From the NCBI GenBank assembly GCA_027307335.1, contig DAHUXD010000065.1, forward strand, positions 1 to 57,187: DNA of 57,187 bases. Reading direction: 5' to 3'. Below are positions 17,230-51,038 of the stretch, piece after piece (positions within the stretch are counted from its first letter, which is position 1; each line of letters opens with the position of its first letter). Under the pieces are notes generated by a model, which was not told the DNA's origin, did not search any database, and worked only from the letters and a program-made list of their open reading frames with translations. Source of the stretch: Acidobacteriota bacterium. GTDB lineage: Bacteria; Acidobacteriota; Thermoanaerobaculia; UBA5066; Gp7-AA6. Made by a program: the position numbers and the translations under genes.

Positions 17230-18423
17230 ATGATTCCCGAGCTCCGCCGCGCCTACAACGAGTCGTTCACGCCCGAGAAGTACGAGGCCTATTCGCGGCG
17301 CCTCGCCGAGCGCGCCGGCACGGAGATCGCGTTCCGTCTCGCGGAGACGCCCGTCTTCCTGCCGAAGGAGCTGCGCGACGAGATGGTCTCGGCGTCGCTC
17401 GACATCTTCCGCCAGCTGTCGACCCCGGCCGCGCTCGAGCGCTCGCTCGCCGCGGTCCCGCCGGCGCTCGACGTGCCGGGCTGCACCGAGTGGCCGACCT
17501 TTGCCGTCGTCGACTTCGCGGTCGCGCGCGGCGAGGGCGACCGCCTCGTCCCCAAGCTGATCGAGCTGCAGGCGTTTCCGACGCTCTATGCGTTCCAGGT
17601 CGCGCAGTGCGAGGAGGTGTCGCAGCTGTGCCCGAACCCGTCCGGGCTGCGCTGGTTTCTGTCGGGCCTCGGCGACGCCTCGTACAGGAAGGTCGTCGGC
17701 GACGCGATCCTCGGCGGCCACCCGCCCGAGAACGTCGTTCTGCTCGACCTCGACCCGCCGCATCAGAAGACCGCCGTGGACTTCGCGTTCACCGAGCAGT
17801 TCTGGGGCGTGCGAGCGGTCGACCCGGGCGTGATCGAGCGCCGGGGCCGCGAGCTCTGGTACACCCGCGACGGGAAACCGACGCGCATCCTGCGGATCTA
17901 CAACCGCCTGATCTTCGACGAGCTCCCGGCGGCCGGCGAGGGAGCCCTGCCGCTCGGCCTCCGCGAGCCGCTCGACGTGTCGTGGGCCGGCCATCCGAAC
18001 TGGTACTTCCGCTGGAGCAAGCACGCGCTGCCCGATCTGAAGCACCCGTGCGTCCCCGAGGCGGTCCTGCTCTCGGATCTCGAGACGCCGCCGAAGGACC
18101 TCTCGGAGTGGGTGCTGAAGCCCCTGTTCTCGTTCGCGGGCTCGGGCGTGAAAATCGACGTGACGGCGCGCGACCTCGCGTCCGTGCCGCGCGAGCAGCG
18201 CGCGCAGACGCTGCTGATGCGGAAGGTGGACTACGCGCCCGCGCTCGAGACGACCGACGGGCACTTCTCCAAGGTCGAGGTGCGCGTCATGTTCGTCTGG
18301 CGCGGCGCGAAGCCGTTTCCGGTGATCACGCTCGCGCGCCTGTCGCAGGGAAAGATGATGGGCGTCGACTTCAACAAGAACAGGACCTGGGTCGGGTCGG
18401 CCTGCTGCCTCTGGCCGGCCTGA
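17230..18423 (+). CDS. Uncharacterised ATP-grasp-like protein
   Basis: A 397-residue soluble protein that I do not recognise as a named family. Several features fit an ATP-grasp, perhaps of the glutathionylspermidine-synthase type: LIELQAFPTLYAFQ, VVLLDLDPPHQKTAVDF, WVLKPLFSFAGSGVKIDV (a nucleotide-binding Lys-Pro-Gly pattern), and KVEVRVMFVW followed by a C-terminal strand pair ending GSACCLWPA. No signal peptide or membrane helix is seen. It follows the receptor kinase by 10 bp and lies near the ATP-grasp/YbdK/M29 cluster, so it may add a further carboxylate-amine ligation step. A hairpin, GGGCGG / CCGCCC, lies about 17 bp after the stop. Confidence 0.6.
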   Translation: MIPELRRAYNESFTPEKYEAYSRRLAERAGTEIAFRLAETPVFLPKELRDEMVSASLDIFRQLSTPAALERSLAAVPPALDVPGCTEWPTFAVVDFAVARGEGDRLVPKLIELQAFPTLYAFQVAQCEEVSQLCPNPSGLRWFLSGLGDASYRKVVGDAILGGHPPENVVLLDLDPPHQKTAVDFAFTEQFWGVRAVDPGVIERRGRELWYTRDGKPTRILRIYNRLIFDELPAAGEGALPLGLREPLDVSWAGHPNWYFRWSKHALPDLKHPCVPEAVLLSDLETPPKDLSEWVLKPLFSFAGSGVKIDVTARDLASVPREQRAQTLLMRKVDYAPALETTDGHFSKVEVRVMFVWRGAKPFPVITLARLSQGKMMGVDFNKNRTWVGSACCLWPA

Positions 18424-30661: not shown

Positions 30662-30768
30662 TGCACCGTGAGTGCACCGACGGACGGACTCCGAGCCGTC
30701 GTCCAAGCTAAGTGGTTGAAAACATGGTTGGGGCGGCCGGGATGGAACCGGCGACATCAGCTCCTAAG
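30662..30768. repeat. Decayed attachment site 1 (arm plus tRNA-Pro 3' half)
   Basis: TGCACCGTGAGTGCACCGA at 30662-30680 is followed 63 nt after its first base by a diverged copy of the tRNA-Pro 3' end (30725 to about 30768) with substitutions in the T-arm and anticodon region and one base lost. The arm shares 25 identical bases with that of site 3. It is the most decayed of the three sites. Confidence 0.65.
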
Positions 30769-30805
30769 GCCGACTGAGGAAACGCAGACCATATTGGACT
30801 GGCTC

Positions 30806-33885: not shown

Positions 33886-33990
33886 TGCACCGTGAGTGCA
33901 CCGACCGATGAGAGGTGACCGAGGCATTTCGCTAAGTCGCTGAGATGGTCGGGGCGGCCGGGATCGAACCGGCGACCATCTGCTCCCAAA
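33886..33990. repeat. Attachment site 2 (arm plus exact 45-bp tRNA-Pro 3' copy)
   Basis: The arm element TGCACCGTGAGTGCACCGA starts at 33886. From 33946 to 33990 the sequence is identical over 45 bp to the intact tRNA-Pro gene from its CCA end through the anticodon loop (50964-51008), then stops matching. This is the expected form of the distal att repeat of an island inserted in a tRNA gene. Confidence 0.85.
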
Positions 33991-34041
33991 CCTAAAACGG
34001 CGGCTCTTTCTGGGTACCAGCGTCGATGACTCGGGATCATT

Positions 34042-34176
34042 CTAGAGCATGGAAAACCAGCGACTAGCGTGTGCATGCAGCGGAACGTCTTGCTCCGCGA
34101 CAGCTGCGGGAGGAAGCGCTTCAGCCACCGCCCGGTACTCCTTGGGCGTCCTCGCTTGTCGCCTTCGGCTTAGCAT
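34042..34176 (-). pseudogene. Possible 44-codon minus-strand gene piece beside site 2
   Basis: A minus-strand frame reads RTPKEYRAVAEALPP and ends SRWFSML. It looks coding in composition but is very short and overlaps the degenerate attC-like hairpin at its start. It lies about 50 bp right of the att core, as does the remnant beside site 1. Family not recognised. Confidence 0.25.
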
Positions 34177-34234
34177 GCGGGGGCAGCGGACTCGCTCTTC
34201 GCCTTCGGCTTATCTGACCCGCTATGCGTTGGGT
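34173..34234 (+). repeat. Degenerate attC-like site upstream of the cassette
   Basis: GCAT-GCGGG (34173-34181) can pair with CCCGC-T-ATGC (34218-34227) with one bulged T, and GTTGGGT (34228-34234) fits the R' core site. No matching R'' is seen. The loop contains CGCCTTCGGCT, also found in the downstream attC loop and again at 34160. Confidence 0.5.
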
Positions 34235-34244
34235 GGATCACAGC

Positions 34245-34979
34245 ATGGACACGGGCGATAGCTTCAGCGCCGCGTATTCTGGGCTTGAAGTCGCAATGAA
34301 AGCCCTCGCCGAGGCAGACGGAGACGTCTATCTCCCGAACCCTGAGCCGCATGGTCCAGTCAACTACGTCCTTGTCTGCATGGAGCCCTCTCTCGGGGCG
34401 CATTCAGCGGAGTACGCTCGCGCGCAGATCGCGAGTGGCTGTAGGAACTTCCTAAATTCGCCTGAGGACTTCATTCTTCACCTAGCTGCCCAACGGTATC
34501 TCTGCCGGCCGGGCCAGCGTTACCATGTCACGGACATCTCCAAGGGCGCGATGCTCGTAAGCGTCGCACGGAAGGCGAGGGCGGAGCGATACGCAAGGTG
34601 GCATAGCCTACTTCTGGAGGAACTCGCTCTCGTCGCCTTGCCCACTGCCAAGATCGTCGCCGTGGGGTCTGAAGCCTTCAGGCATCTCACGCGTCACGGA
34701 TGTGAATGGCCGGTTACGCAGGTGCTTCACTACTCTGGCCAGGCAGCGCGTGCCCGCAGAGCCGCTGTGTCCGGGCTTGAGCTTCAATTCGACGAATTCG
34801 CAGCGTCCATAACGCACGATGACCTACTTGCGTCGGCTTTCGACGTCCTACAGGCCGCTCGCATCCCCGCCGCAATCTGCAACGCCACGTTGACCCGCTT
34901 GAGCCGCAGCTCCCTCACGGCGTCCCGTTTGCAGCTCCTATTCAGCTATAAAGTGGCTTTCGAATCGTTGTGCTCCTGA
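34245..34979 (+). CDS. Cassette-borne protein, possibly uracil-DNA-glycosylase-like
   Basis: A 244-residue soluble protein in an integron-type gene cassette. I start it at the ATG at 34245 because the ATG at 34224 lies within the R' core of the upstream site. Segments NYVLVCMEPSLGAHS, YHVTDISKGAML, LLLEELALVALPTAKIVAVGSEAFRHL and VTQVLHYSGQ follow the order of motifs in the uracil-DNA glycosylase superfamily (phosphate-loop strand, partner strand, Glu-Leu helix with ALG-like strand, and a His-Tyr-Ser end), but the catalytic motifs are not canonical. It could be a nucleic-acid repair or defence protein; the assignment is tentative. The stop is 29 bp before the attC. Confidence 0.45.
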   Translation: MDTGDSFSAAYSGLEVAMKALAEADGDVYLPNPEPHGPVNYVLVCMEPSLGAHSAEYARAQIASGCRNFLNSPEDFILHLAAQRYLCRPGQRYHVTDISKGAMLVSVARKARAERYARWHSLLLEELALVALPTAKIVAVGSEAFRHLTRHGCEWPVTQVLHYSGQAARARRAAVSGLELQFDEFAASITHDDLLASAFDVLQAARIPAAICNATLTRLSRSSLTASRLQLLFSYKVAFESLCS

Positions 34980-35008
34980 GCCAGGGAACACTCGGCCGGG
35001 TGGGAGCC

Positions 35009-35084
35009 GCCCAACATGCGCGTGCAGCAGACTCGCTCATCGCCTTCGGCTCTTTGCGAGCCGCTGACGCGTCACCCGTTCGGC
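35009..35084 (+). repeat. Integron attC recombination site
   Basis: R'' GCCCAAC (35009-35015) and R' GTTCGGC (35078-35084) pair at six of seven bases. Inside, GCGT/ACGC, CAGC/GCTG, G/C and CTCGC/GCGAG form a long stem. G35024 and A35031 are extrahelical on the same strand and the loop has 19 nt. The order R''-L''-L'-R', the 76-bp length and two extrahelical bases are the hallmarks of attC sites used by integron integrases. Confidence 0.75.
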
Positions 35085-35155
35085 GCCTGGAGTCAGCTGC
35101 CCTCACCGCGGTTTACGTTCCCCGCAGGTCTGGGACTTTTCATGGGACCTCAGCC

Positions 35156-38100
35156 CTAAGCCGCTATTCCTTGGCGGCGTCGGCGCGAAATACTTCCGAA
35201 CAAGGCCACGACCGCCGACCCGAGTGCCGCGGCCAGAACGCTGGCTGAAAGAATCTCAACTATCCAGTGCCTACGTGGGAGGAAGGCATCTGGAAGAGCG
35301 AAGACGTCTAGGGTCCAGTTGCGGTCGCCAGGGAGAGGGACGATGAACGACTGCTCGAACCCCTCGCGAGCCGGGCCGGCGTTCGCGCCGCCCCGTTCCG
35401 CCAGCGGCGGCGCCTTCGGCTCGCTCGGGTCGCGCAGCCGAAGCCCGATACCGGAGGCGTCGACCTGCGACGCCGCCTTGTCGACGAGCGGCGCCACCCG
35501 GAGGATCGCCACCACGAAACCGAGCAGCGCCTTCGGCCGCGCCTCCTCGGACCCCGGATCGCCGCCGCGAAAGACCGGGGCGTAGGCCGAGACGACCGGC
35601 GGCCCCTTGCGGCCCGTGCTCTCGACCAGCTCGAAAGGCGGCGAGAAGGTGATCACGCCCTTGTCCCGGGCCTTGGAAGCGGTCGCCCATCGCGGTGGGC
35701 TTGAGGCGATGTCGAACCCGAGAGCGCGCGCGCTTGGAGGTTCCATGTAGAGGATCGGAACATAGAGGTCGCGATGCCCGACGGCGGTGGCCTTGCCGTC
35801 CACGACCTCCCAGAAGCCGAGATCCATCACGTGGTCAGCCTTCGCCTCCGCCTCGCTCTTCGCTCGGTCGCTCCCGCGCACGAGCGGCAGCCATTCGAAG
35901 GCGTAGACCTCGGGGTTGCGCGTGAGCATCGGAACCGCGAGCAGGCGAAACTGGACTCGCGTCATTACGTGATCCGACGCATCCATGAAGCTCTGCAGGG
36001 TGTAGAGGTTCTCGAGCGCTAGCGTCAGCCGTTCCGAGACCTGAGCCTGGAGGCGTTGCGCCTTCTGCGAGAAGGCGAGTTGCGCAGCGGCCTCGGCGCT
36101 CTTGTCGAAATAGATTCCCCAGCCGAACAGAAGAGCGGCAGCGAGCCCAGCCGCGGCAACCCACCTCTGGCGCCGGTTTCGATTCGCAAGGGTCGTCATT
36201 GCCCTCGCGAAATCCTCCTCAACTGCCGAGAGCCCACCCTCGTAGGTTTGCCGCCATGCCTGGTACTCGAGATACGAAGCTCCCGTCCAAAGAACGTCGT
36301 CGGATTGCCCTCGCTTCAGCCACAAGTGCGCCGCTTGTCGAAGCTCGTCTCGAAGTTGCGCCCCGACTGCACTCTGCGTCTGCCACCGAACAAGCCGCGG
36401 CCATGCCGTCAAGAGCGACTCGTGCAGGATCTCCACGTGTCGCCCGCCGGACGCGCCACCGCCTTCATCGGCCTCGTAGGATGTCAAGAGCCTCGCGTCT
36501 ACGAGTTGCCTTACCACGGTCTCAGCGGCAACACGGTCTGGAAAAGCCGACAGCAACTCGTCGGTGGTCAGCACGGCACGCGTGCCCTGTGCCGTGGTTA
36601 GGTTTCGAAAGATCGAGCGCACAGTCCCTTCATGCTCGAGACCTATACGATCGAGAGTGGCCTCCGCGTGCAGGGCGAGGGCCCCTTCTACGCCGCCAAC
36701 CTTGAGGTACGTCTCTCGGGTGAGGACTTTCCGCTCCTGGTCTCGGCGATTCCATAGTTTAGAAACAGCGAATGCCAACAGCGGTAGAGCTCCGCGCCCT
36801 CCCTCGACGGCACTAAGAATGTCCTCCACGAGTGCATCGTCCTCGAAGCTATAGCCGAGCTTGCGAGCCGGTTCGACCACGGCGCGTCTGAGGTCCTCCC
36901 GCGTCAGCGTACCCAGGGGTGTCAGTTCGCTGAAGACTTCCGCTAGAGCCGGATGCTCGTGACATCGCATCAAGAAGTCATCGCGCAGGGACAGAAGGAG
37001 GTGAACGTCGGCCTCTTTCGCTAGTCGCCCAAGGAGCGCGGCGAATCGAGCCTGGGTCTCCGTTGAGTTCAGCGTGAAGAGCTCCTCGAATTGATCCAGA
37101 ACGATGAGCGCTTGCTCGTGGTGCTTGCGCCAACGGGCGAGCAACTCGAATGCGGTCGCAGGATCGTCAAAACCCGCAAGCTTCCGCAATGCCTCGGAGT
37201 CTCCGGCAAGTTCGGGGCCCAGAATCTGGCCGAGAGCCCTCAGCGGCGCTGGCCCTGGCGTACTGACGAGCGTTGCCCACCCCTTAGGTCTGGACGCCAC
37301 AACGCCCGCACGGACGAATGAGGTCTTGCCGGCCCCCGAAGCCCCAATCACGGCCAGCAGTCGGCGACGTCGGATCTTGTCCCAAAGCATTGCGACTTCG
37401 TGCTCGCGGCCGAAGAAATTTCCCGCGTTCTCTTCGGTGAAGGAAGAGAGGCCGGGGTACGGATTCTTTTCTTCCACTTCTCGGAGCGTGGCAGTCTCGC
37501 CTCGCCCCTGAAGCACCGCTTCGAGTTCCATTGCCAGGTCATGGGCTGACTGAAAGCGCTTCTCAGGCTCCTTTTCTAGACAGCGGTCAAGAATGGTCTC
37601 CGTCCTGGGAGAGGCAGGGAGCTTCTCGGGTGCATCCTGCAGGATCGCCGTCAGAGTCGCGGGGATTGTCTCCCGTCGGAACGGATGTTTCGCTGCCATG
37701 AGCTCGTAGAGCACCACTCCAAGCGAGAAGATGTCCGAACGGTGGTCCACGTCCTCCGCACGTAGCTGCTCAGGGGACATGTAGGCCAGCGTGCCGAGCA
37801 ATACCCCGGGCTGCGTGAGATTCGTTGCCGTCGAAGCTTTGCTCTCGACCTCGGTGCCCGTCCCGAGCTTCGCGAGACCAAAGTCGAGAATCTTTATTCG
37901 ACCTTCGGCCGTGAGGAAGAGATTCTCTGGCTTTAGGTCCCGATGAACGATGCTCTTGCGATGAGCAGCGGCCAGGCCCTGGGCCACCTGTAGGCCCCAC
38001 CCCAACACCTGTTGAGTCGAGGGAACTCTGCGCACTATGACATCCCGTAACGTCTCGCCCTCGAGAAGCTCCATAACGACATAAGGCATTCCCTCGTAGC

Positions 38101-38338
38101 TTCCAACGTCGTAAATCGACATGATGTGAGGATGATTCAGGGCGCCGGCAGCTCTGGCCTCTTTCTCGAACCTGCTCAGGCGAGCAGGGTCCCGAGAGAC
38201 AGCATCTGGCAAGACTTTGATGGCAACATCGCGCCCCAATCGGGGATCGCGCGCCCGGTAGACCTCCCCCATCCCGCCCTTGCCAACTGGCGACAGAATC
38301 TCGTAGGGACCTAGACGAGTCCCAGCTGGGAGTGTCAT
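35156..38338 (-). CDS. Ser/Thr kinase fused to STAND NTPase and CHASE-type sensor
   Basis: A 1,060-residue signalling protein. The kinase (about 8-275) has GKGGMGEVYRA, AIKVLP, SIVHRDLKPENL, ILDFGLA and GTLAYMSPEQ. A STAND-type NTPase (nSTAND1-like, about 310-700) follows, opening with NPYPGLSSFTEENAGNFFGRE, with Walker A IGASGAGKTS (about 345) and Walker B LIVLDQFEELF (about 430). After a membrane helix (about 735-753) comes an extracytoplasmic CHASE-like domain (about 790-1005, containing VYAFEWLPLV), then a second helix (about 1025-1045). CHASE domains bind small ligands, usually at the N-terminus of histidine kinases or cyclases; here it is C-terminal. STAND modules act as nucleotide-driven switches. 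Confidence 0.85.
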   Translation of the reverse strand: MTLPAGTRLGPYEILSPVGKGGMGEVYRARDPRLGRDVAIKVLPDAVSRDPARLSRFEKEARAAGALNHPHIMSIYDVGSYEGMPYVVMELLEGETLRDVIVRRVPSTQQVLGWGLQVAQGLAAAHRKSIVHRDLKPENLFLTAEGRIKILDFGLAKLGTGTEVESKASTATNLTQPGVLLGTLAYMSPEQLRAEDVDHRSDIFSLGVVLYELMAAKHPFRRETIPATLTAILQDAPEKLPASPRTETILDRCLEKEPEKRFQSAHDLAMELEAVLQGRGETATLREVEEKNPYPGLSSFTEENAGNFFGREHEVAMLWDKIRRRRLLAVIGASGAGKTSFVRAGVVASRPKGWATLVSTPGPAPLRALGQILGPELAGDSEALRKLAGFDDPATAFELLARWRKHHEQALIVLDQFEELFTLNSTETQARFAALLGRLAKEADVHLLLSLRDDFLMRCHEHPALAEVFSELTPLGTLTREDLRRAVVEPARKLGYSFEDDALVEDILSAVEGGRGALPLLAFAVSKLWNRRDQERKVLTRETYLKVGGVEGALALHAEATLDRIGLEHEGTVRSIFRNLTTAQGTRAVLTTDELLSAFPDRVAAETVVRQLVDARLLTSYEADEGGGASGGRHVEILHESLLTAWPRLVRWQTQSAVGAQLRDELRQAAHLWLKRGQSDDVLWTGASYLEYQAWRQTYEGGLSAVEEDFARAMTTLANRNRRQRWVAAAGLAAALLFGWGIYFDKSAEAAAQLAFSQKAQRLQAQVSERLTLALENLYTLQSFMDASDHVMTRVQFRLLAVPMLTRNPEVYAFEWLPLVRGSDRAKSEAEAKADHVMDLGFWEVVDGKATAVGHRDLYVPILYMEPPSARALGFDIASSPPRWATASKARDKGVITFSPPFELVESTGRKGPPVVSAYAPVFRGGDPGSEEARPKALLGFVVAILRVAPLVDKAASQVDASGIGLRLRDPSEPKAPPLAERGGANAGPAREGFEQSFIVPLPGDRNWTLDVFALPDAFLPRRHWIVEILSASVLAAALGSAVVALFGSISRRRRQGIAA

Positions 38339-38723
38339 CGGACGACTGCTGTGTTTAGTTTATGCCGCTGGCGCTCGAAAGGCCCGGACGTGGCCGGGCG
38401 CTAATGGCCATTACTGAACGCAAGAGTCCTCGTGCCACGCGCCGGACGCTCCAGACCTCGGAAGCCTGACGTGGCCCCCGGATCAAGGTGCCAGCGCTAT
38501 GCGGTCAGTGTCGCTGCCGCACAGTTTCGGCGGCCGTCGGTCGATGTTGGCGGTTTCGAACAGCGAATCCACACCAAGTGCACCGGCCTGGCGACTCGGG
38601 ACGCTTCCGCGACTAACCAGCTCAGTCGATGGCGCCTTGGGGTTCGACTAGCCGGGTGACCATTGGTCTTGGTGACAGCTGGGCCGGCACGGGTCCAAAC
38701 TCCGCTCGCGGCCGCTTCTGCAT
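38339..38723. other. 385-bp gap without a recognisable gene
   Basis: Lower GC bias than the host genes. I see no convincing coding frame, RNA or terminator. A palindromic patch, GGCCCGGACGTGGCCGGGC, lies near 38380. A single TGCACCGG near 38577 resembles half of the att arm but is not followed by tRNA sequence. Confidence 0.5.
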
Positions 38724-38831
38724 CTACTTCGCCATCTTCGTCGCCGCCGCGATCGCCACGCGAACCCCGGGATCGAGCGCCAGCGCCGCCCCGAACACCT
38801 CTTGAACCCGAGCCCAACGCTCCGGCGTCAC
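38724..38831 (-). pseudogene. N-terminal remnant of a second kinase gene
   Basis: The 35 codons from GTG 38831 to a TAG at 38724 read TPERWARVQEVFGAALALDP, matching the leader of the adjacent kinase (MTPERWQRAQEIFGEALL) and of many acidobacterial kinases with this N-terminus. Nothing of the kinase domain remains downstream. It is probably left over from a duplicated or replaced kinase gene. Confidence 0.6.
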
Positions 38832-38900
38832 TGTGTCGACCCCAGTACCTGCCGCTGCAGCCCTTTTCGTTCTCTCGATGACGGGAGGCCGCCGACCTGA

Positions 38901-41747
38901 TTACGCACCGGCAATCAGCTTCTTAAACCTAGGATTCTCGCGAAGTGGTTCGAAGTTGGGGTCGATCTTTAGCCACTCGGGCGTCAGGAAATAAGGGATC
39001 TTCAACAGCGGCTCGAGCTGATCGAGGGCCTTCTCCTGCTCTCCGGTAAGTATGTAAATGTGTACTAAAGCGCCCTGCATAACTGCACCTCCCCACGCGT
39101 CCCTAGATAAGGGCAGGACCGTGACGGCGCGCGTACCCTCCTGAATGGCACCCTCCTTATTGCCCAAATATGCTAGGGCGAGACCGAGGCGCGCGTGGCC
39201 AGTACCGTCTATGCTCTTTGGCGCAGCGCGAAGCTCTTCCACGAGCGCCTTCCTCGCCTGGTCGGCATAGAAGAGACAATTCGCCCTGTCCCCCTTCAGC
39301 GCCGAAGCCTGAGCAAGGCCAAGACCCCAAGCGCCTCTGTTGTCGTCGAAGGCGCTCGGGGGCAGGCGAAGAAGCAATTCGCGTTGGTCGTCGTCAAGGA
39401 GCCAGATCAGCTCACACTCCTGGGCCATATGGTTCACGAGGGCCGGCTCAAGCTCTCTCGGCACGGTCTTGAGCACAGCTCTGGCTCCGTTGATATCACC
39501 CTGCATCACGAAGGACAGCGCCTTGAGCTCAAGCAGGTAGAGGCTGGCGGGTGCAAGAATGAGCCCGCGATCGAAGGCCTCCCTCGCCTCGCGGTATCTT
39601 TTCAGGCTAAGAAGTGTCGAACCGACAGCCTGGGGGTTCGTCGGATCATGTGGATCGAGGCGTTCTGCTTCCTTGAAGTGCCCTACCGCTTCCTCCGGCC
39701 GGCCAAGGCATATCTCGGTCATGGCCATTCCAGAAACAAGGTCAGGGTTGTTGGGTGCAAGACGGAGGCCGCGACCGTATTCTGCCCGAGCGCGGCTGAA
39801 GTCGAGGGTCACGAAATGCTGGTAGAGACCAAGAGCTAGGTACCCTTCGGGCCGGTCGCCTGCTAGCGCCACTGCCTTTTCAGCGGCTAGCCGAGCGTGC
39901 TCGGCGGTTTCCGCCTTGTGTGTGACACTGAACATTACGGTATACGCCCTGGAAATCAACCCCCATGCGTCAACAAAGCTGGGGTCCAGGGCGACGGCCT
40001 GTTCGTAATAGCCGAGTGCAATTCGGACGTTGGACAAGGGATTGTTGGTCCAACCGTCCCAAGCCCCCTGACCCTTGAGAAATACGTCATAGGCCGCGAG
40101 GCTCAGCGTGGGCCTCTCAGTTAGCCGCCGTTGCTGACCAGCTCCGAGCGCAACGCCTAGTTCCTGCGCCACCTTCGTTGCGACGTCCGAGTGCACCCGA
40201 AACACGTCCGTCTTCGACACGTCGAACGGCTGCTGCCACTTCGACGTCGGAGCACCAGAAGTGGATACCTCGATGAGCTCGGGTTCCACCTCCACGCGGT
40301 CCGCCCCTCCGGACCCCTTCTGCCAGCGAACCGTCGCCGTCAGGAGATAGCCGACGTCGAGCTCGCGCGCAATCTGCTGCGGCGTCTTGGTCGTCTTCTT
40401 GTACGGTGTCGAGCTGCCGCGGGCGATCACCTGGACGCCCGACAAGAGGGTCAGTTTGCCACGGATTGCATCTGAGATTCCGTCGGCAAAGCCGTCGTCC
40501 TCCGGCGCTCCGAGGTTCTCGAACGGAAGAACGGCGATGCGCTTGGGGCCCGGCTTCTCGACTCGGGTCGGGCGTCTGGTTACGCCGATGCCAGCTGCGA
40601 TTGCCACAGCAATCAGCGTCGCGGCCGCGATGAGGGCTCCGCGGGCGATTCGCCCCGGCCGCTCGAGCGACGAGACCTCGGACAGCGCCTGGAAGACCTC
40701 CCGCACCGATCCGTAACGCTGCTCGCGGTCCTTGTCCAGGCATCGCGCAACGATTTGATTCAGGGCCGCCGACCTGCGGCCCTTAGTCTCAACGGGCCCT
40801 GCCGGCTTCTCCAAGAGGATCGCCGCCATGGTGTCCGCCGGCGTCTCCTTCCGGAACGCCCGTCGGCCCGACAACATCTCGTACAGGATCGCTCCGAAGG
40901 AGAAGATGTCCGAGCGCCGATCTACCTCCTGCCCGTTGACCTGCTCGGGCGACATGTACCCTAGCGTCCCCATCACGGTACCGGGTTGAGTACGGCCTTC
41001 GGCCCTTGGCGGGCTTGCTGTCGCCTCGTGTTCATCCTCTCGACCGCGGCGCTTGGCGAGCCCGAAGTCGAGGATCTTGAGATGCTCGTCCCTGGAGATG
41101 AAGATGTTCTCCGGTTTTAGGTCCCGGTGAACGATCCCCTGCTCGTGCGCAGCCGCAAGTCCCTTGGCGAGTTGCACGGCGAAGTCGATCGACTGAGCCT
41201 CAGGAAGAGGACCCTCATCGAGCATCGCTCGGAGTGTCCTGCCGTCTAGGAGCTCCATGACCGCAAAGGACACGCCGCCCTCGGTGCCGAAGTCGTGGAT
41301 TGCAAGAATGTTTGGGTGGGACAGTGCCGCGACGGCTTTCGCTTCGCGTTCAAAGCGCGCCAGGGCACTCGCGCTTGCACTCAAGTGTGCCGGGAGTACT
41401 TTGATCGCCACATCCCGGTCGAGCCGCGAGTCCAAGGCGCGGTAGACCTGCCCCATGCCTCCCGCCCCGATGGCAGCGATCACCTCATACGGCCCGAGCC
41501 GGGCGCCACTCTCGATCGGCGTACCCGATTCAAGGGGCCAGGTTGGCGATTGCGATGGCGTGATCGCTGGAGAAGCCAGGAAGTTCGGCGTTGCCGCGTC
41601 GTGGGCCGCGAGAAGAGAGTTGACCTCCGTTGCCAGCTCCTTATCGCCACCGCAGGCACCCCCTACGAAGGCTGAGCGCTCATCGGCGCCGCGCAAGAGG
41701 GCTTCTCCAAAAATCTCCTGTGCTCGTTGCCAACGCTCCGGCGTCAT
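38901..41747 (-). CDS. Ser/Thr kinase with TolB-like and TPR domains, partner of the ECF sigma factor
   Basis: A 948-residue membrane kinase. After a MTPERW leader (1-75) the kinase domain (about 88-350) has GAGGMGQVYRA, AIKVLP, GIVHRDLKPENI, ILDFGLA and GTLGYMSPEQ. A membrane helix (about 375-395) is followed by a TolB-like domain (IAVLPFENLGAPEDDGFADGISDAI, about 410-525), as found beside TPRs in cyclase and CadC-type regulators, and then a long TPR array (about 560-940). I choose the ATG at 41747 because it forms ATGA with the sigma stop and matches the family leader. ECF/kinase pairs of this type are known where phosphorylation of the sigma factor activates it; the same is inferred here. 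Confidence 0.88.
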   Translation of the reverse strand: MTPERWQRAQEIFGEALLRGADERSAFVGGACGGDKELATEVNSLLAAHDAATPNFLASPAITPSQSPTWPLESGTPIESGARLGPYEVIAAIGAGGMGQVYRALDSRLDRDVAIKVLPAHLSASASALARFEREAKAVAALSHPNILAIHDFGTEGGVSFAVMELLDGRTLRAMLDEGPLPEAQSIDFAVQLAKGLAAAHEQGIVHRDLKPENIFISRDEHLKILDFGLAKRRGREDEHEATASPPRAEGRTQPGTVMGTLGYMSPEQVNGQEVDRRSDIFSFGAILYEMLSGRRAFRKETPADTMAAILLEKPAGPVETKGRRSAALNQIVARCLDKDREQRYGSVREVFQALSEVSSLERPGRIARGALIAAATLIAVAIAAGIGVTRRPTRVEKPGPKRIAVLPFENLGAPEDDGFADGISDAIRGKLTLLSGVQVIARGSSTPYKKTTKTPQQIARELDVGYLLTATVRWQKGSGGADRVEVEPELIEVSTSGAPTSKWQQPFDVSKTDVFRVHSDVATKVAQELGVALGAGQQRRLTERPTLSLAAYDVFLKGQGAWDGWTNNPLSNVRIALGYYEQAVALDPSFVDAWGLISRAYTVMFSVTHKAETAEHARLAAEKAVALAGDRPEGYLALGLYQHFVTLDFSRARAEYGRGLRLAPNNPDLVSGMAMTEICLGRPEEAVGHFKEAERLDPHDPTNPQAVGSTLLSLKRYREAREAFDRGLILAPASLYLLELKALSFVMQGDINGARAVLKTVPRELEPALVNHMAQECELIWLLDDDQRELLLRLPPSAFDDNRGAWGLGLAQASALKGDRANCLFYADQARKALVEELRAAPKSIDGTGHARLGLALAYLGNKEGAIQEGTRAVTVLPLSRDAWGGAVMQGALVHIYILTGEQEKALDQLEPLLKIPYFLTPEWLKIDPNFEPLRENPRFKKLIAGA

Positions 41748-42337
41748 CGGACCGGTCCAACGAGCTCGCGATGCAACCACGCTCTTGCCACAGCCCACTT
41801 CCGCTGAACAGTCGCCGTGGAGCTTTCGAGTGCCGTCGCCACTTCCTCATTGGTCAGGCCGGCAAAGAACCTGAGCTCGACGATACGAGCCTGTTCCAGA
41901 TCGAGGGCTGCAAGTTTGACGAGTGCGTCGTTAACAGCGATCACGTCGACTTCGCGAGGCATGGTCATTGCGATGGTCTCGATGTTCGAGATCGCTGCCG
42001 GCTCGCCACGTTTCTTGGCCGCGCGCCGGCGAGCGTGATCTGCAAGGACCTGGCGCATCGCCCGGCCAGCGACGAGGAAAAAATGGGCCCGATTCGCCCA
42101 AGGTGTATCGCGAGCTCCCTGGAGCTTGAGGTAAGCCTCGTTGACGATTGCAGACGGCTGAAGCGTGTGGTTCGCGCGTTCTCGCCTCATGTGTCGCTCG
42201 GCTAGCCGGTGGAGCGTGCTGTACACCAATGGGACGAGCTTCTCCGCGGCAGAGGAGTCACCCGCTTGCCACGCACGCAGGAGCGCAGTGACTTCCCCTT
42301 GTGTCGGAGGTGAGCTAGCCCTCGTGTCCTTCGACAT
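41744..42337 (-). CDS. ECF sigma factor, Sig-70_X6 type
   Basis: A 197-residue sigma factor of the kinase-associated ECF group (TIGR02999/Pfam Sigma70_ECF). Region 2 contains LVYSTLHRLAERHMRRERANHTLQPSAIVNEAYLKL-like sequence (about 35-75) and AHFFLVAGRAMRQVLADHARRR. Region 4 is ALDLEQARIVELRFFAGLTNEEVATAL with its helix-turn-helix (about 145-185). The group lacks a classical anti-sigma factor and is usually next to a Ser/Thr kinase, as here by ATGA overlap. Its targets are unknown; the giant Ig protein and other island genes are candidates. Confidence 0.9.
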   Translation of the reverse strand: MSKDTRASSPPTQGEVTALLRAWQAGDSSAAEKLVPLVYSTLHRLAERHMRRERANHTLQPSAIVNEAYLKLQGARDTPWANRAHFFLVAGRAMRQVLADHARRRAAKKRGEPAAISNIETIAMTMPREVDVIAVNDALVKLAALDLEQARIVELRFFAGLTNEEVATALESSTATVQRKWAVARAWLHRELVGPVR

Positions 42338-42530
42338 GATCGGGATCTGAGCCGAAGTTTATGCTTCGGATGTTGGTTTGGTTTCGCTACTCTAAACACT
42401 GGCTAAACCTCAGTGAACCGCTCGCAAAAAGGGGCCCGCCCGGCGAACGGAGAAAGGCAAGAGCCTCAGCCGGACGAGCCGGACGGAGAGTCGAGTCGCA
42501 GCGGCTCTCCGCTTGGAACGGGTTTAGGAC
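42338..42530. other. 193-bp gap upstream of the ECF gene
   Basis: It should hold the sigma/kinase promoter, read on the minus strand. TTTAG-type A/T-rich patches near 42390-42410 are the only candidates. No -35/-10 pair is convincing. Confidence 0.3.
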
Positions 42531-42713
42531 CTACTTTCGACGACCAGCGGGCGGCGGCGGCGGAAGCGGAGTGGGAACGCGGCAGGGGTGATGATTGACG
42601 CTGCCCCTGACGTGACTACAGTTAGGGCTCGGCGGCAGCGTGCTGGCCGAAAGCTCCGCAACGATGACCAGAAGAGGAACCGCCGCGAGGAGCGTTCCGA
42701 TCAACTTCTTCAT
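42531..42713 (-). CDS. Small secreted Pro-rich peptide
   Basis: A 60-residue product: MKKLIGTLLAAVPLLVIVAELSAS is a clear signal peptide, followed by a short polar part with two Cys (PNCSH, HHPCRV) and a proline run near the end. AGGAGG lies seven nt before the ATG, one of the best ribosome-binding sites in the island, so it is probably translated. The 35-residue mature peptide could be disulfide-linked. It has no recognisable family and sits between two sigma-like genes on the same strand. Confidence 0.6.
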   Translation of the reverse strand: MKKLIGTLLAAVPLLVIVAELSASTLPPSPNCSHVRGSVNHHPCRVPTPLPPPPPAGRRK

Positions 42714-42948
42714 GGTTCGTCCTCCTTTGCCCTAGAAAGCGCAAAAGAGGACCGGCGTGCATCAAGGGCACTCGAATCGACAAGGGAGATCGAAGGTGAT
42801 CGGCCTCAGTGCACCAGGAGTGCGCTGGCTCGAGGGAGGAAGCGGATCAGAGTTCGAAGGTGCCTAGAGACCAGGCGCTGCGGGTTCTCGTTGAGGCGTG
42901 ACTACCGGTCTCATTAACCGATTCGACGGGCTCGAATCTGACGCTGGC
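42714..42948. other. 235-bp gap
   Basis: It probably carries the promoter of the small secreted peptide gene. I see no other feature in it. Confidence 0.4.
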
Positions 42949-43470
42949 TTAGGCCAACCCTCGCCGACCTAACCTACTTAGCCGTTTCGCTCTCGCCCTG
43001 ATTTGACCTAAGTGGTGTTGCTCACTCCCGTGCCGAATGCCGATCTGGCGGGCGGCCTCAGATAAGCAAAGCCCGTTCGCCATTAGCGCGAGGAGCCGAC
43101 GTTCTCGCAGAGGCGAGCGTGCGGCCAACCGCTCCAGGAAGAGTCTCGCGTCCATCCCGCTCTGGAAAGCTGACGCTTCGCGATCGCGGCTGCGAATCGA
43201 CACCTCCGTGAGTCGGGCTTCGCGCCACCGATGACGGAGGTATCGTCGCAGGAAGTTCTGAAGGACGGCCGCTAACCAGGGAGCAACAAGGGCCGTCTCG
43301 AGATTTCCACTAGACACGAGCCAGGTGAGGACGTCTTGGGCTAGATCCTCCGCTTCGGAGGCTGTTAGACCTGCGATCACGGCTGCTGCCGTCAGGCGCC
43401 CAAGGATGGTCAGTAGCGCATCATCAGCTGGGATTCGTCGGTCAAAATGGCTGACTTCCGAACTCATCAT
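42949..43470 (-). CDS. ECF-like sigma factor
   Basis: A 173-residue protein with the ECF layout. The region 2 equivalent is TASEAEDLAQDVLTWLVSS followed by APWLAAVLQNFLRRYLRHRWREA. The region 4 equivalent is SPLRERRLLALMANGLCLSEAARQIGI and a helix-turn-helix ending RAKRL. Region 2 is divergent, so promoter specificity is probably unusual. GGAGGC precedes two adjacent ATGs (43470 and 43467); the second has the better spacing. It is transcribed away from the giant Ig gene and has no adjacent anti-sigma gene. Confidence 0.7.
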   Translation of the reverse strand: MMSSEVSHFDRRIPADDALLTILGRLTAAAVIAGLTASEAEDLAQDVLTWLVSSGNLETALVAPWLAAVLQNFLRRYLRHRWREARLTEVSIRSRDREASAFQSGMDARLFLERLAARSPLRERRLLALMANGLCLSEAARQIGIRHGSEQHHLGQIRARAKRLSRLGRRGLA

Positions 43471-43818
43471 GCCTCCGCTAACCTAAGGATTGTCGCGAGA
43501 GGTGCCTGGGAAGGTGTCTGCGGCAATTCCTAGCTAGCGAATCTTTTTCCCATCTTTTCGCTCTCGTCAAGCGACTTCTATCTAGACAGCGCTAACTTGC
43601 TAAGGCCCGAGTGAGCACACGCCAGCCGACCGGCGAAAAACGAGCACGCCTGCCGAAGGTAGCGATTGCCTTGGCGAGGGCCATCCTCTACAAGATCACA
43701 CTCTCGCCGCTCGACGAACGAGCGGCGCGGGATGTGAAGACCTCGAGATCCGTAGCCCGGCGACCGGTTCGACGACCCAGGCCAATTCGTTCTGTCTCTT
43801 GTTGATCCACCGGAGGGG
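43471..43818. promoter_or_regulatory. 348-bp divergent region between sigma-like gene and giant Ig gene
   Basis: A/T-richer than its surroundings (for example near 43535-43590), fitting two divergent promoters. A GGAGGG lies eight to ten nt before the giant-gene start. No operator repeat is obvious. Confidence 0.35.
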
Positions 43819-46800
43819 TTGAAGATGAAAAAGACCTTCACTCGCCACTCGTCATCGACCGAAAAGCAGCACTTGCCCCTTCTGGTCGTTCGGTTGGCAG
43901 CCCTAGTCGTCTTCGCGTGCTCCTCGCATCCCCTCTTCTCCCAAACGCTCCAATCCGTTTCCCTGAGTCCAGCCGCGCTTCCTATTGGCAATCAATCGAC
44001 GGGAACGGTGACGTTGTCTTCGGCGGCACCCGCAGGCGGCGCGACCGTGACCCTCTCGACCTCCGATTCGAAAGCAACGCACTTGCCCGCCAACGTGGTC
44101 GTGCCCGCGCAGGGGATCACAGCGACATTCGTCATCACGACCAGCTCGTTGCCGCCCGGCACTTCGACCGAAACCGTAACCATCAGCGCGATTTACGCTG
44201 GCGTCACCAAGACCGCAACGTTAACGCTATTCGTCGGCCTCTCGTTCTCGCCAGGGTCCGTGGCTTACGGCCAACCGACGACGGGAACAGTCACTCTTGC
44301 CTCACCGGTCCCAACCGGCCAAACGGTCTCGGTATCCTTAAGCAGTTCAAACCAGGCAGTCTTTCCCGTTCCGTCATCCCTAGTTCTCACGGCCGGTCAA
44401 TCGAGCAAGACGTTCGTAGTTACACCGACCATAGTTACTGCCAATACGTCCATCACCGTAACGGCGACATACACGGGCTTCACGGCAACGGCTGCCGTTA
44501 CTGTCTGGCCTACCAGCCTGGCATCCGTCACACTTTCAGCTGCCAGCGTGATCGGTGGAACGCCAGTCTCCCTAAAGATTCTCCTAACCAATCCCGCGCC
44601 TCCTGCCGGCCAACTCGTCTTGATCACAGGCCTTTCAAGGGGGTGTCCGTCGAGCCTCACGATTCCCGCGGGCTCAGATATTGGAACGTTAACTTGTAGT
44701 ACTGCCCCCGTGTCGACGGACACGATTCTCAACATCAGCATAAGCGCGAACGGTGGCCAACTTCTCGCTCTCGTTACAACTGCTGGCCCGTCGATACTCT
44801 CGCTTACGACGGCACAGCCCGAAGCTCTGAGCGGTCAGTCCTTAAGTGCCACGATAACGCTAAACGCCCCTGCGCCGGAGGGTGGCGCCACAGTTAACCT
44901 CAGTTCACTAAATTCGTCCATCGCGCACTTCAGGTCTGCAACCGCCTTCATTCCGGCGGGCCTGACGACTGGGGTTGCACAAGTTGATACCGGCCCGACT
45001 ACTGGAGCCGCTACGCTGACCGCGGGGTATGGAAGGTATGCGGACCTCAACGTTACCGTCACGGCAGTCATTGTCCCTCTATCAATCCGAACTTCACTTT
45101 CTCCGATAACGCACGGCTCTATCGGTTACTACACGATCACCCTTGATGCGGTAGATTGCAACGGCGGCGCCGTGAGCCTGACCAGTAGTCACCCCGAAAT
45201 CTTTCCTGTTCCGTCAAGCGTTCCGTGGCCGTGTTCGGACCATTTCGACATCACACTCCCCACGATCACGCCTGCTCCTGGTTCGACGGTTGTGACTCTT
45301 TCCGCGACTCGGAACGGCTCGACGGCCTCCCAGAACGTCATCGTCGCTGGGGCGCCGATTGCGTCAGCGATTTCCGCCGGCGTCCAGACCGCCCCGCCCG
45401 GAACACTTCACGCTACTCTTGCTCTGATCGGTACGTCGTATCCTAGCGGGACGCAAATCCCCGTTTGGAGCTCCAACCCGGCGCTCGCTAGCGTCCCAGC
45501 ATCAATAACAACCAACGGCTCCGCGACGTATGACGTGCTGGTTACGCTTTCTACTCCAACCGTGCCTAGTCTCATCACGCTGTCGGCCGCCTATGGCGGT
45601 ATGACAGTCCGATCTGACCTTATCGTAACGCCTACTGTGTCGCTCAACGGCCTAGCCCTGGAGACCACTGAGTTAACAGGCGCTGCCTTTTCTATAACCG
45701 GTGATGTCTCACTAAATGGCCCCGCACCTAGCGGGGGCATCATCGTCACGTTAGCCAACTCCCAGGCAGCAATAATCACAATGCCGACGTCGATAACGGT
45801 CGCGCAGGGCCTTCAGATCGCTAGCTTCACCATCACTACCCAGGCGGTGTCCACGGATACCTCCGCCACCATCACGGCCATTGCCGCCGGGATCAGCCTC
45901 AGCGCTCCTCTCACGGTCCTTGCTCCCACTGTTAGTGCCGTGACTCTAGCTCCCGACGTCGTAACGGCCGGCGGCTCGGTTGTCGCAACCGCTGTTCTCT
46001 CGGGCCCCGCTCCCACAGCCGGCCTGAGTATTCCGATCTCGGCTTCCTCGACGGAGGTCCAGGGCACGACGTTCCCTACGCTCACCAACAGCAGCCTACC
46101 GATCGCTGCCGGGAGTTCTAGTGGGTCGTTCACGGTCCAGACCATACCGCAGACCATTCAGGGCTGCTGGAACTTCGTTGACGTATCCGCGTGTCGCCTG
46201 CTCGCGTGCGGGACTGGAAGACTATGGGTGTACAGCAGCGCGCTTCTAGGTCTGTCCCTCAGCCCTGCCACCGTGCAGGGCGGTCAACCATCCACCGCGA
46301 TCATCACGCTGAACGGAACTCCAGATGTGCCGGCGACAGTTCAGCTAACGAGCACGCCGGCCGGGATCGTGACAATGCCGACGAGTGTCGTCATAGCGGG
46401 AGTGACCGGGCAAGTGGCCATCAACACGAGCGTTGTGTCGGCAGACACGGCAGTGACGATAACAGCAACCTACGGGGCATCAAGTGGTGGCGGTTCCGTC
46501 CAGCTTCAGCAGGTCCTCACCGTTACAAAGCTTGCGACACTCCAGTCGCTGACACTTACCCCAGCCATGATAATAGGTGGAAACACCGCCACGGGAACAG
46601 TCTTGCTAGACGGCCCTGCACCATCCGGCGGGGCGATCGTGTCCCTGACCAAGACCGGCTCTTCGGCCGTCGCTATACCGAGTTCGGTCACTGTTGCAGC
46701 CTCGCAACAGTCCAAATCGTTCAACGTCACCACGACAGCGGTAAGTTCAGCCGCTACCGCTAATATCACTGCGGCGTACGGAGGTATCAGCAGGCCGACC

Positions 46801-49800
46801 ACAATCACGGTCCTTCCTACCTCCGCGGCGACCCTAGCGGCAGTATCCGTGAATCCGTCCACGGTTCCGGGGGGAACGAATTCCACCGGAACAGTCACCC
46901 TCACTGGCCCGGCCCCTAGTGGCGGCGCGACAGTCTCACTATCAAGTTCGAACCCCAGTGTCGCGTCCGTTCCGGCTACCGCAACGATTTCTACTGGCCT
47001 CTCGGGCCCATTTCCCGTGACCACTTACTCGGTCTCAGCTCAGACCGCGGTTACCATTACCGCAGTCTACGGGTCGACGACCGCCAGGACGACAACGATC
47101 ACCGTTACACCTCCTTCTGCGGCGGCGGTCACGTCGGTCACCTTGAGCCCGCAATCTGTTGCGGGCGGCGAAACGTCGACGGGGACGGTTAGCCTTTCGG
47201 CGGCGGCTCCCTCCGGAGGCTTGGTGGTGGCCCTCTCAAGCTCCAACTCGGCTGTCGCGATTCCAGACAACACAACTGTCACAGTGCCGCAGGGTTACAC
47301 GGCTGCAACATTTTCGATCTCGACATTTGCGGCGACGAGCAGCTCGGTCGTCACTATCACTGCCGTGGGAGGAGGCAGCAGCCGGAGCGCGTCGCTCACC
47401 GTTAACGCCGCGACATTTAGCGGCGTTGCCTTTGCCGTACCGAGTACGGTCGGCGGGAGCTACGTAGCGCTTACTGCCTCCCTCAGCGGGATAACGCCCT
47501 CGGGCGTCACAATCGCGCTATCGTCAAGCAACTCAGCCCTACCGGTGCCGGCATCGATCAGCGTCGGCGGCGGTAGATCGAAGAGCACTGCCGTGATCGC
47601 TACGACCCAGGTCGCGACCGACACGGTGATCACTGTGACCGCGACACTAGGCGCAATCGTTCGGACTGCCCAAATTGCGCTGACGGTGGCGCCCGAGCTT
47701 CTGAGCGCCGGCACGACCACTCCCGCCCTGCCCGCCGGGCAAGTTGGTGAAGGCTTTGTCACACTCAACGGTCCAGCTCCGTCCGCGGGTATGGTCGTAG
47801 CCCTCACGAGCAGCGATCCAACCGCGGTTATCGTGCCAGCGAACGTGACAATTCCCCAAGATTCGGACTCGATCGGCTTTGACATTACGATTCCGGCTCA
47901 GCCCCTGGATAAGACTGTGACCATTACGGCAACGGCTGCCGGGAAGACCGCGACCTTTCAGCAGGACGCTCTAAACGTGGGCATCAGCAGCGTTACCGCT
48001 ACGCCGGCCTCCATACCTGCAGGTACTTCGTCGACCGGCCAAGTGACGCTGTCCTCCAGCGCACGACTGCCCGTAGAGGTGTTTCTTACGAGCGCTAATC
48101 CCGACCTAGTTCAGGTTCCAGGGAGCGTCGTGATCGCCAATAGTGCCACCGGTACATTTCCCATCACGACCTCGGGGGTAGGAAGCAACACTAGCGTCAG
48201 CATTTCCGCGACGTTCCAGGACCCGAGCGAGCTACCGGTTCTAGCTAAATCTGAAGCACTCGCGACCGGAACAGTCACGGTTACGACCTCATCGCCACCC
48301 CAGCTGGCGAGCTTGCAGTTCCCGGCGGGAGTCGGTGTCTCCGCCACACAGTACACCGTAACCGGTTACGTCAAGCTCACAAGCCAAGTGACGACACCGG
48401 TCACGGTCGCCATAACGTCCCTAGACCCACTAATAGCCACCGCGCCGCCGACGGTCACTATAACCTCAGGTTATGTCGGCACGTTCCCTGTAACGATGAC
48501 GCCGATGGTCGGCGGTACCGCGCGCTTCACGGCGACCTACGGCACCGTGTCATTGACACGATCTGTCGGTGTGGCTCCGCCGTCAACGTTCTCGTATTAC
48601 GTGACACCTACAGGTTACCCTGGCAACCTGCAGGCGATGGGCTGTGACACTGCGACCCGGATGTTAGCCAATGGCCTCACGGAAGGCGCGGTGATCTTGG
48701 ACTTCGGCGCGGCGACGCGCATTCTTCCAGACATTGGTGGCACTCGCGTCTACGGTGCGACCCTTCACAGTAGCTCGGCAAATTGGAAGTCGACGTATAC
48801 CCTCGCTCAGGATGTCTACACTCAGTACTATCTTGGCTTCATAGCTTGTGAGTCGCCCAGCGATGTCGGTGTGACGCTCATACTCGCCACCAACACGACC
48901 GGAAAGCACGAGAACTACACCGAGCATGCCGCCGCGTGGTCGGGCTTTGTCGACGCCTTGAACGACGGCTACGGCTCGGGGCTCGTCGTCGGCGGCAATG
49001 ACATGGAGCCGGATGTAACGAAAGGCTGGGCGACTCCGTCACTCGCCCGCCAGTGGATCGACAGCTGGATCGCACAGCCATTTATCGGTATTTGGAATCC
49101 AAACGAGTGCGTTTATACGGGCGCCGCGGTAGCCGACTCTGCCTCGCCGTGGAAGAAAGACGATTACTACTATTGTGCGCAGGGCGGCCTCAACGTGTTC
49201 GGCAGCCAATTCCCGATGGGAGCGCCGATGCCGCAAATTTACAACACGCGAGGAAAACAAGCTTCCATTTGGCACGACATCTCGGCGTACGCAGCCACTG
49301 CCTACAACGATCCGATTCTGTTCGGGGGCGCCTTAACACAGCAACAGGCGTGTATTGACTTGAATGATCCATGTACTGGTAGGAACAATCCTCCCTCTCA
49401 GGGCTGGTATCAGTTATTTAGCGACATCGCCGCTGACCCAGCAACGGCTGCTGGGACGGAGTTTATGAACTGGTCCACCGACATAGCATGGTTTCCGAAC
49501 GCCGGCACGATAGCCAAGGAGGGCGAACTTCGAGAGGTACCGTCACTAGAGGACGCAACGTCAGAACTGCGCGCGAAGTACGAGGCCGGGCGCGCGCGGC
49601 TGGCTGAACACCTTGCGCGCGTAGTCCCACAGGGCAAGCCCGCTGACCCGGCTGGTTCTGATGGCGAGGAGAGCGGAATCATGTCCAACCAGGACATCTA
49701 CGGACCGATCGCTCGCAAGATTAACCTTCAGAACTGGTACCAGGGGAGGGTTGACGGTGCCATCGTGGCTGCATATGCCGGGTCGGAAAGGCACCTTCGG

Positions 49801-49989
49801 ACTAGCCCGTTGCTCTTGGTGCAAGCTCTTTCGCCGGACGGTATGGGCGGAGGGCCGCTTCAGGCATACAGGCCTCCCAATGCCACGGGTATGCTTCGCA
49901 TTGTCAGCAGCGCTGGCGACCTCCTAGTGCTCGCCACCGATGACGGTAGTCAGTATGCGTTCGACCTGCGGAGTCGCCAATGGCAATAG
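43819..49989 (+). CDS. Giant secreted Ig-repeat protein with glycosidase-like C-terminus
   Basis: A 2,056-residue exported protein. The signal peptide lies in residues 1-42 (hydrophobic [18 protein letters not shown], cut near LFSQ). Residues about 43-1585 consist of some sixteen Ig-like repeats of 85-100 residues with the pattern sVtLsP..v.GG..stGTVtLs.pAPsgGa.V.LsSsn, then vpasvtV..G..s..F.vtT..V...t.vtItAtYgG. The last about 465 residues are distinct: a domain with [43 protein letters not shown] and [15 protein letters not shown], which may be a TIM-barrel, glycosidase-like fold; catalytic residues are not certain. No LPXTG, PEP-CTERM or SLH anchor is seen. GC and codon bias are clearly lower than in host genes, suggesting transfer. 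Confidence 0.75.
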
Positions 49990-50015
49990 CCGGCGAGACG
50001 TTCGTGGGCACCGGT

Positions 50016-50021
50016 TATAAT
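50016..50021 (+). promoter_or_regulatory. Consensus TATAAT -10 box
   Basis: TATAAT 26 bp after the giant-gene stop and 33 bp before the ATG at 50054. No matching -35 is seen, but it is the only perfect -10 hexamer I found in an intergenic region here. Confidence 0.45.
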
Positions 50022-50053
50022 ATTGCCTCACCGAAGATTGCCTACTGCCCCGG

Positions 50054-50665
50054 ATGGACACGCGCATGGGCGTAATAGCGCACAAAACAGCTGTTCGAGT
50101 TGTCGCCGGTCTGGTGGTCGGCCTCGCGACAACCAGGTGTCTTGCGGTAGCACCGACTCCGCCGAGTCCAAGGGAGACCACCTACCGGAGCGATGCGGTC
50201 GGCGTCACGCTGCGAGTCCCGGCCAACATGGCCGCGCTTAGCGGTGAGCAGGCGCGCATCGGTTTTGCCTGGCCGCTACCTGACATGAGACTAGATCTCC
50301 ATGAACCCGACCTTCGAAAGGTCGGGATTACCAGGGCGTCTGTGGTGGTCTACGCATCGATCGACGGTTATTGCCCGCCGCCGCAGCCGGATGAAGGAGG
50401 GGTTCCGGTGACCTTGGGAGGCCGTGCCGCATATCACGTCACATGGACAGACGCGGCAGGAGCCTTTGGGATCCAGGGCGATGGGTTCAGCACGCTCTAT
50501 CGAGGCAAGTGCTTCTTCATAGCGGCCGTGATCGAGACGCTACGAGTGGACTACGACAGTCTACAAGAGCAGCGGCATGCGGATGCACGGTACAAGGAGA
50601 TTGCCGAGTATCTACAGCGGGTTCTTCGGACGGTCAGGTTCCTTGATAGGCCGGATAGCAATTAG
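50054..50665 (+). CDS. Secreted hypothetical protein
   Basis: A 203-residue exported protein. The signal peptide is TAVRVVAGLVVGLATTRCLA; the second ATG at 50066 gives a more typical n-region. The mature part starts with a Pro-rich segment, then YRSDAVGVTLRVPANMAAL, a beta-rich centre (VPVTLGGRAAYHVTWTD) and a C-terminal helix (KEIAEYLQRVLRTVRF). Family not recognised; the layout resembles small secreted proteins that describe or bind a surface component. It is the last island gene before the tRNA-proximal att site. Confidence 0.6.
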   Translation: MDTRMGVIAHKTAVRVVAGLVVGLATTRCLAVAPTPPSPRETTYRSDAVGVTLRVPANMAALSGEQARIGFAWPLPDMRLDLHEPDLRKVGITRASVVVYASIDGYCPPPQPDEGGVPVTLGGRAAYHVTWTDAAGAFGIQGDGFSTLYRGKCFFIAAVIETLRVDYDSLQEQRHADARYKEIAEYLQRVLRTVRFLDRPDSN

Positions 50666-50899
50666 GAATTGCGTACCTCCCAGCCGGACCCTCGGTAAGT
50701 CCATCTCCGGCGGTCGCGCACAGCCAAGGCGGCCGCGCTAACCTTCTTCCTCCAGGCCTGGCGGGGTCTGGCCGGTTTACAGCCTGATTCCGCCTGCACA
50801 CCTGACGCGAAGCACTCGGGAAGGCGCTAGGTCTAGGGTCACCCCGTTCCTATCCAAAGGGTCTAAGCCACAATCGAGCGAATAGGAGCCGAAGACGAC
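50666..50899. other. 234-bp gap at the island's right end
   Basis: No gene, integrase remnant or RNA is recognisable here, although an integrase would be expected next to the tRNA in a complete island. Confidence 0.5.
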
Positions 50900-51008
50900 T
50901 GCACCGTGAGTGCACCGACGGACGAAAGCCAACCGAGCGGTTTAGCTAACTCATTGAAAGGATTGGTCGGGGCGGCCGGGATCGAACCGGCGACCATCTG
51001 CTCCCAAA
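50900..51008. repeat. Attachment site 3 (arm plus tRNA-Pro 3' half, intact)
   Basis: The arm element TGCACCGTGAGTGCACCGA begins at 50900, 64 nt before the tRNA CCA end. The 45-bp core (50964-51008) is the 3' half of the intact tRNA-Pro gene. TGCACCG occurs twice, 11 bp apart, in each arm, as might suit two integrase or accessory-protein contacts on one helix face. Confidence 0.8.
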
Positions 51009-51038
51009 GCAGATACGCTACCGCTGCGCTACGCCCCG
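50964..51038 (-). tRNA. tRNA-Pro (anticodon UGG)
   Basis: On the minus strand the acceptor stem CGGGGCG pairs with CGCCCCG and is followed by A and an encoded CCA. The anticodon stem AUCUGC/GCAGAU encloses the loop UUUGGGA, so the anticodon is UGG. The T-arm has GUUCGAUCC. All arms fold. The downstream (3') side borders the island and the 5' side borders host-like DNA, so the insertion left the tRNA functional. Confidence 0.95.

Follow-up and report, generated by a model that had tools for sequence, protein, structure and literature searches.

An integron gene cassette with an attC site of the resident family inside a tRNA-Pro genomic island of an Acidobacteriota bacterium

The window, that is the whole stretch of 57,187 nucleotides analysed here, contains a genomic island which is bounded by tRNA-Pro sequences and carries a gene cassette close to its left end. 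The features are as follows.

33946 to 33999, minus strand: copy of the 3' half of tRNA-Pro at the left island end (exact repeat of 44-45 bp), a putative attachment-site repeat
34000 to 50963, no strand: genomic island holding the cassette (GC drop, flanking tRNA repeats, gene content)
34064 to 34150, plus strand: possible third attC remnant, strongly decayed (collinear alignment with an array site)
34168 to 34234, plus strand: decayed attC site, whose R' box GTTGGGT (34228 to 34234) is the leading edge of the cassette
34229 to 35078, plus strand: gene cassette of 850 bp between two putative G^TT crossover points (sequence and two attC sites)
34245 to 34979, plus strand: cassette gene, 244 aa (codon-position GC 0.64/0.49/0.69, as in neighbouring genes)
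35009 to 35084, plus strand: intact attC site (covariance model and identity to the nearest array site)
50964 to 51038, minus strand: intact tRNA-Pro(TGG) at the right island end (ARAGORN and Rfam)

The GC content is about 0.60 between approximately 34 and 51 kb, compared with about 0.70 outside. This deviating composition, together with direct repeats containing the tRNA 3' end, is that of a tRNA-gene island, and the earlier proposal that the cassette sits in an island is thus confirmed. At the left end, likeness to the tRNA-Pro 3' half runs on, in diverged form, to position 33886. Among the island genes are two for kinases and one for an ECF sigma factor, and no match to PF00589 (tyrosine integrase) that could represent an integrase of its own was detected in the window contig. 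In two relatives, G001 and G002, tRNA-Pro lies near a relative of the window gene at 17230-18423, in a different arrangement and with attC matches of at most 16 bits; a clean empty island site was not seen in either of these tRNA-Pro regions. An older copy of the tRNA-Pro 3' half is present at 30662-30773 of the window, and G001 has a similar tRNA-Pro repeat (L186:10214-10351 and 13712-13918). Such recurring copies, here and in G001, suggest that this tRNA gene has served repeatedly as an integration target. The island also contains an open reading frame of 2056 aa (43819-49989, plus strand) with no Pfam match and an unusual codon-position GC of 0.55/0.59/0.66.

The attC site at 35009-35084 is genuine. 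Its R'' box GCCCAAC (35009-35015) and R' box GTTCGGC (35078-35084) carry the AAC and GTT of such boxes, with one mismatch between them, and the arms are complementary. In the bottom-strand fold (−21.7 kcal/mol, z −2.67, with 2 of 200 shuffled sequences folding equally well) and in the consensus structure, the unpaired bases at 35024 and 35031 are both on the R''/L'' side. Since the consensus fold of the array sites has them on this side too, the cassette is read on the plus strand, and folding and recombination are expected of the bottom strand. The covariance model used for the searches was made of 13 aligned attC sites of the same genome, all of 76 bp, from which the window site had been left out. 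With this model the site, which is itself 76 bp long, scored 83.4 bits (E 2.2e-16), the best unrelated match in the window being at 13.2 bits. It resembles the attC sites of a true array with an integrase: it is identical to the nearest array site at 69 of 76 positions, which is within the range that the array sites show among themselves, and as a DNA query it found 15 further matches in its own genome (contigs C48 and C11) with E values from 1.8e-26 to 2.4e-12. Since five of its bases are absent from the 13 array sites, including one in R'' and one in R', the site may be impaired in recombination. The original prediction had described these two boxes, the two extrahelical bases and a stop codon 29 bp before R''. 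All are present in the sequence and in the fold, the stop codon ending at 34979.

The site had also been described as a lone one, and this has to be corrected, as a decayed second attC (34168-34234) borders the cassette, possibly followed upstream by a third. The second site scored 22.9 bits (E 0.0092) in the window with the 13-site model, its core matches the intact attC as DNA with an E value of 3.3e-7, and it aligns along its whole length to the array consensus, minus 9 bp. For the segment 34064-34150 no full-length covariance-model match was obtained, and 1.5% of window segments align with the array site equally well; its collinear alignment is therefore suggestive only of a third remnant. 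The segment between the two crossover points, which we place from known attC chemistry, is a genuine integron gene cassette of the resident attC type. The cassette layout originally proposed was thus borne out by the covariance model and by the second attC at the leading edge, with 34229-35078 as its proper limits. At the position where the two right-hand boxes, R'' (GCCCAAC) and R' (GTTCGGC), are mismatched, R'' does pair with the R' box on the left side of the cassette (GTTGGGT). This is the pattern expected of a unit that has moved as a circle, but it concerns one position in one case.

Translation of the cassette gene more likely begins at 34245 than at 34224, because the ATG at 34224 precedes the crossover point. 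No credible relative of the 244-aa product was found in viral contigs, phages, plasmids and the PDB, in 60 related genomes, in 15 integron-bearing genomes or in 398 genomes of a second phylum; nothing else in its own genome matched it, and 396 genomes of the phylum gave short weak matches only (E 4e-4 or worse). No family of Pfam, NCBIfam, PHROGs or PADLOC matched either, and an AlphaFold2 model made without relatives had a mean pLDDT of 33.4, too poor for a fold test. The guess that the product might be UDG-like found no profile or sequence support in these four collections or in the PDB and is not adopted. Integron cassettes often encode orphan products.

The absence of an integron integrase, as originally stated, is correct for the window and its contig, where PF00589 has no match, but not for the genome. 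Contig C11 carries an intact gene for an integron integrase, a tyrosine recombinase scoring 441.8 bits with TIGR02249 (cut-off 265), and about 20 attC sites of the same family are distributed over C11 and C48. In this array, genes are separated by GCCTAAC...GTTAGGC sites lying 0.3 to 1.3 kb apart. Three attC sites are downstream of intI on C11, and C48 begins within an array; the two contigs probably adjoin. A genome-wide covariance search yielded 22 matches at E values up to 1, and 20 of these, the window site included, had an E value of 1.6e-6 or better. Two weak attC-like matches, at 25 bits on C20 and at 15.3 bits on C16, were not accepted as sites. Among 60 genomes, comprising this one and its relatives, an integrase above the curated cut-off was found in 22, and attC sites were detected in 17 with the 13-site model at an E value of 0.001. 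Integrons have moreover been described in many phyla (PMC8618304, PMC8352920), and the view that cassettes are little described in this phylum was at least incomplete.

How does the window locus compare with known arrangements? Clusters of attC sites lacking an integron integrase (CALIN) are a described class, for which IntegronFinder 2.0 (PMC9024848) requires two or more neighbouring attC sites without an integrase in the vicinity. The window holds one intact site and one decayed site of low score (22.9 bits), and no integrase is present in the contig. It shares with CALIN the attC sites and a cassette gene without a nearby integrase, and differs in having a single intact and a single decayed site within a tRNA-bounded island. 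In about half of Xanthomonas genomes, attC clusters occur off the home locus with the integrase elsewhere in the genome, as here (PMC12444791). Off-target insertion by an integrase located elsewhere, loss of intI and rearrangement have been proposed as origins of CALIN (PMC8618304). A published route, by which cassettes insert at attG sites of non-classical type (Loot et al. 2024, cited in PMC11023631 and PMC12444791), would likewise yield a cassette outside an integron, but the upstream edge in the window is a decayed attC and not a plain genomic site. The window cassette probably falls into the CALIN class. Since other bacteria are known to have outlying cassettes, it adds a further example to a known kind. 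In relative G002, three attC sites (L140:5597-5666, 7983-8052 and 9338-9407) lie in the 125-kb contig C14, away from the integrase contig C68, and are possibly another outlying cluster.

We consider it probable (roughly 0.7) that the locus is a remnant CALIN of the resident attC family, made up of one cassette with an intact attC and one clear, perhaps a second, decayed attC within the tRNA-Pro island. From the attC sites, the island repeats, the intI gene and the array, all directly observed, we infer how the cassette reached the island. The integrase of the resident integron would recognise the folded bottom strand of attC, and the cassette would have moved in circular form, through recombination of attC with attC or with attG. 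The island cluster would thus have been seeded in trans by the resident integrase, by which it may still be mobilised, and the upstream attC copies would have decayed after seeding. This reading is supported by the score with an independent model, the 76-bp length and the 69/76 identity, the intact intI and the array of about 20 sites, and also by the decayed attC at the leading edge, the left R'/right R'' pairing, the island repeats and the GC drop. No strain devoid of the cassette was found, so that insertion by the integrase is proposed from these features.

The most serious competitor is that the island arrived from another strain of the lineage with a piece of array already in it, through ordinary recombination or loss of intI, the genome's own integrase playing no part. 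A row of two or three attC copies, the decayed ones having hardly any sequence between them, does look like a shrunken array piece, and such clusters are recognised to arise through intI loss and rearrangement (PMC8618304). However, the island has neither a trace of intI nor other neighbours from an array, and the cassette borders are clean; we judge this course of events unlikely, though it deserves to be kept in mind. Far less probable is an assembly join through which part of the real array entered this contig: the assembly consists of 65 contigs, and misassembly is known to result from attC repeats (PMC9024848), but both window attC sites carry changes seen in no array site, and the cassette product has no counterpart elsewhere in the genome. 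Lastly, GC-rich sequence readily forms hairpins, as the shuffled sequences that fold equally well illustrate, but a chance hairpin resembling attC is ruled out for practical purposes by the E value obtained with the independent model and by the similar sites standing in array order behind intI. The presence of cassettes of the resident family within a tRNA-bounded island, here in a lineage that is not among the well-studied pathogens, points to a plausible exit route from the home array.

The surroundings of the integrase gene may matter more than the cassette itself. The resident intI is transcribed toward its cassettes, as in Treponema integrons (PMC3607928) and in the inverted integrase sub-clade (PMC8352920), which belong to other lineages. 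It differs from these in that, in five genomes of the present order, intI is located behind genes resembling the SOS mutagenesis genes imuA and imuB. These five genomes represent two families (L011:849-5224, L141, L143, L153 and L154). In G000, G001 and G002, intI is downstream of an imuB-like gene, with a gap or small open reading frames between them, and G000 and G002 also show imuA. In G012 and G013, imuB is followed immediately by intI, with overlapping frames in the latter genome. The names ImuA and ImuB are based on gene order and on profile scores below the curated cut-offs.

A direct repeat, TTRCGCCTnTnTTACGCCTA, is present at the start of imuA. Three copies with at most 2 mismatches were found in G000, at imuA, before lexA (TIGR00498, 197.7 bits) and before a dnaE2-like gene, and the reversed control pattern gave none. 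Across 20 genomes there were 17 sites (L011:849-868, L191:1501-1520, L192:1501-1520 and L193-L206), compared with 3 matches for the reversed pattern. They precede lexA (3), imuA (2), intI directly (2, in G006 and G011), dnaE2-like genes (3), radical-SAM genes (5) and others (2), that is, intI, imuA, lexA, dnaE2-like or radical-SAM repair-type genes in 15 of 17 cases. The dnaE2 and radical-SAM (DNA-repair-linked type) names come from reading the translations, without a profile result. The repeat is probably the operator to which LexA binds in this order.

That intI can be under SOS control is known from Vibrio and other bacteria (PMC3323433, PMC3108266). No description of intI inside an imuAB operon was met in the portions of the literature covered by our search, and this silence is weak evidence of novelty. 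We propose, tentatively and with somewhat more doubt than conviction, that intI joined a LexA-controlled imuAB-like operon, so that a single promoter, responding to DNA damage, would drive both error-prone repair and the shuffling of cassettes. The same integrase would seed tRNA islands, which could carry cassettes between strains. With intI under SOS control, a single operon would allow the coupling between mutagenesis and cassette shuffling to be tested. In relative G001, the integrase gene (L143:2246-3285) is split across two frames and may be broken. In addition, a short similar stretch that includes GGTGAGATGAT was noticed by eye to recur near intI and in the array, at approximately L011:5355, L011:6849 and L009:8510.
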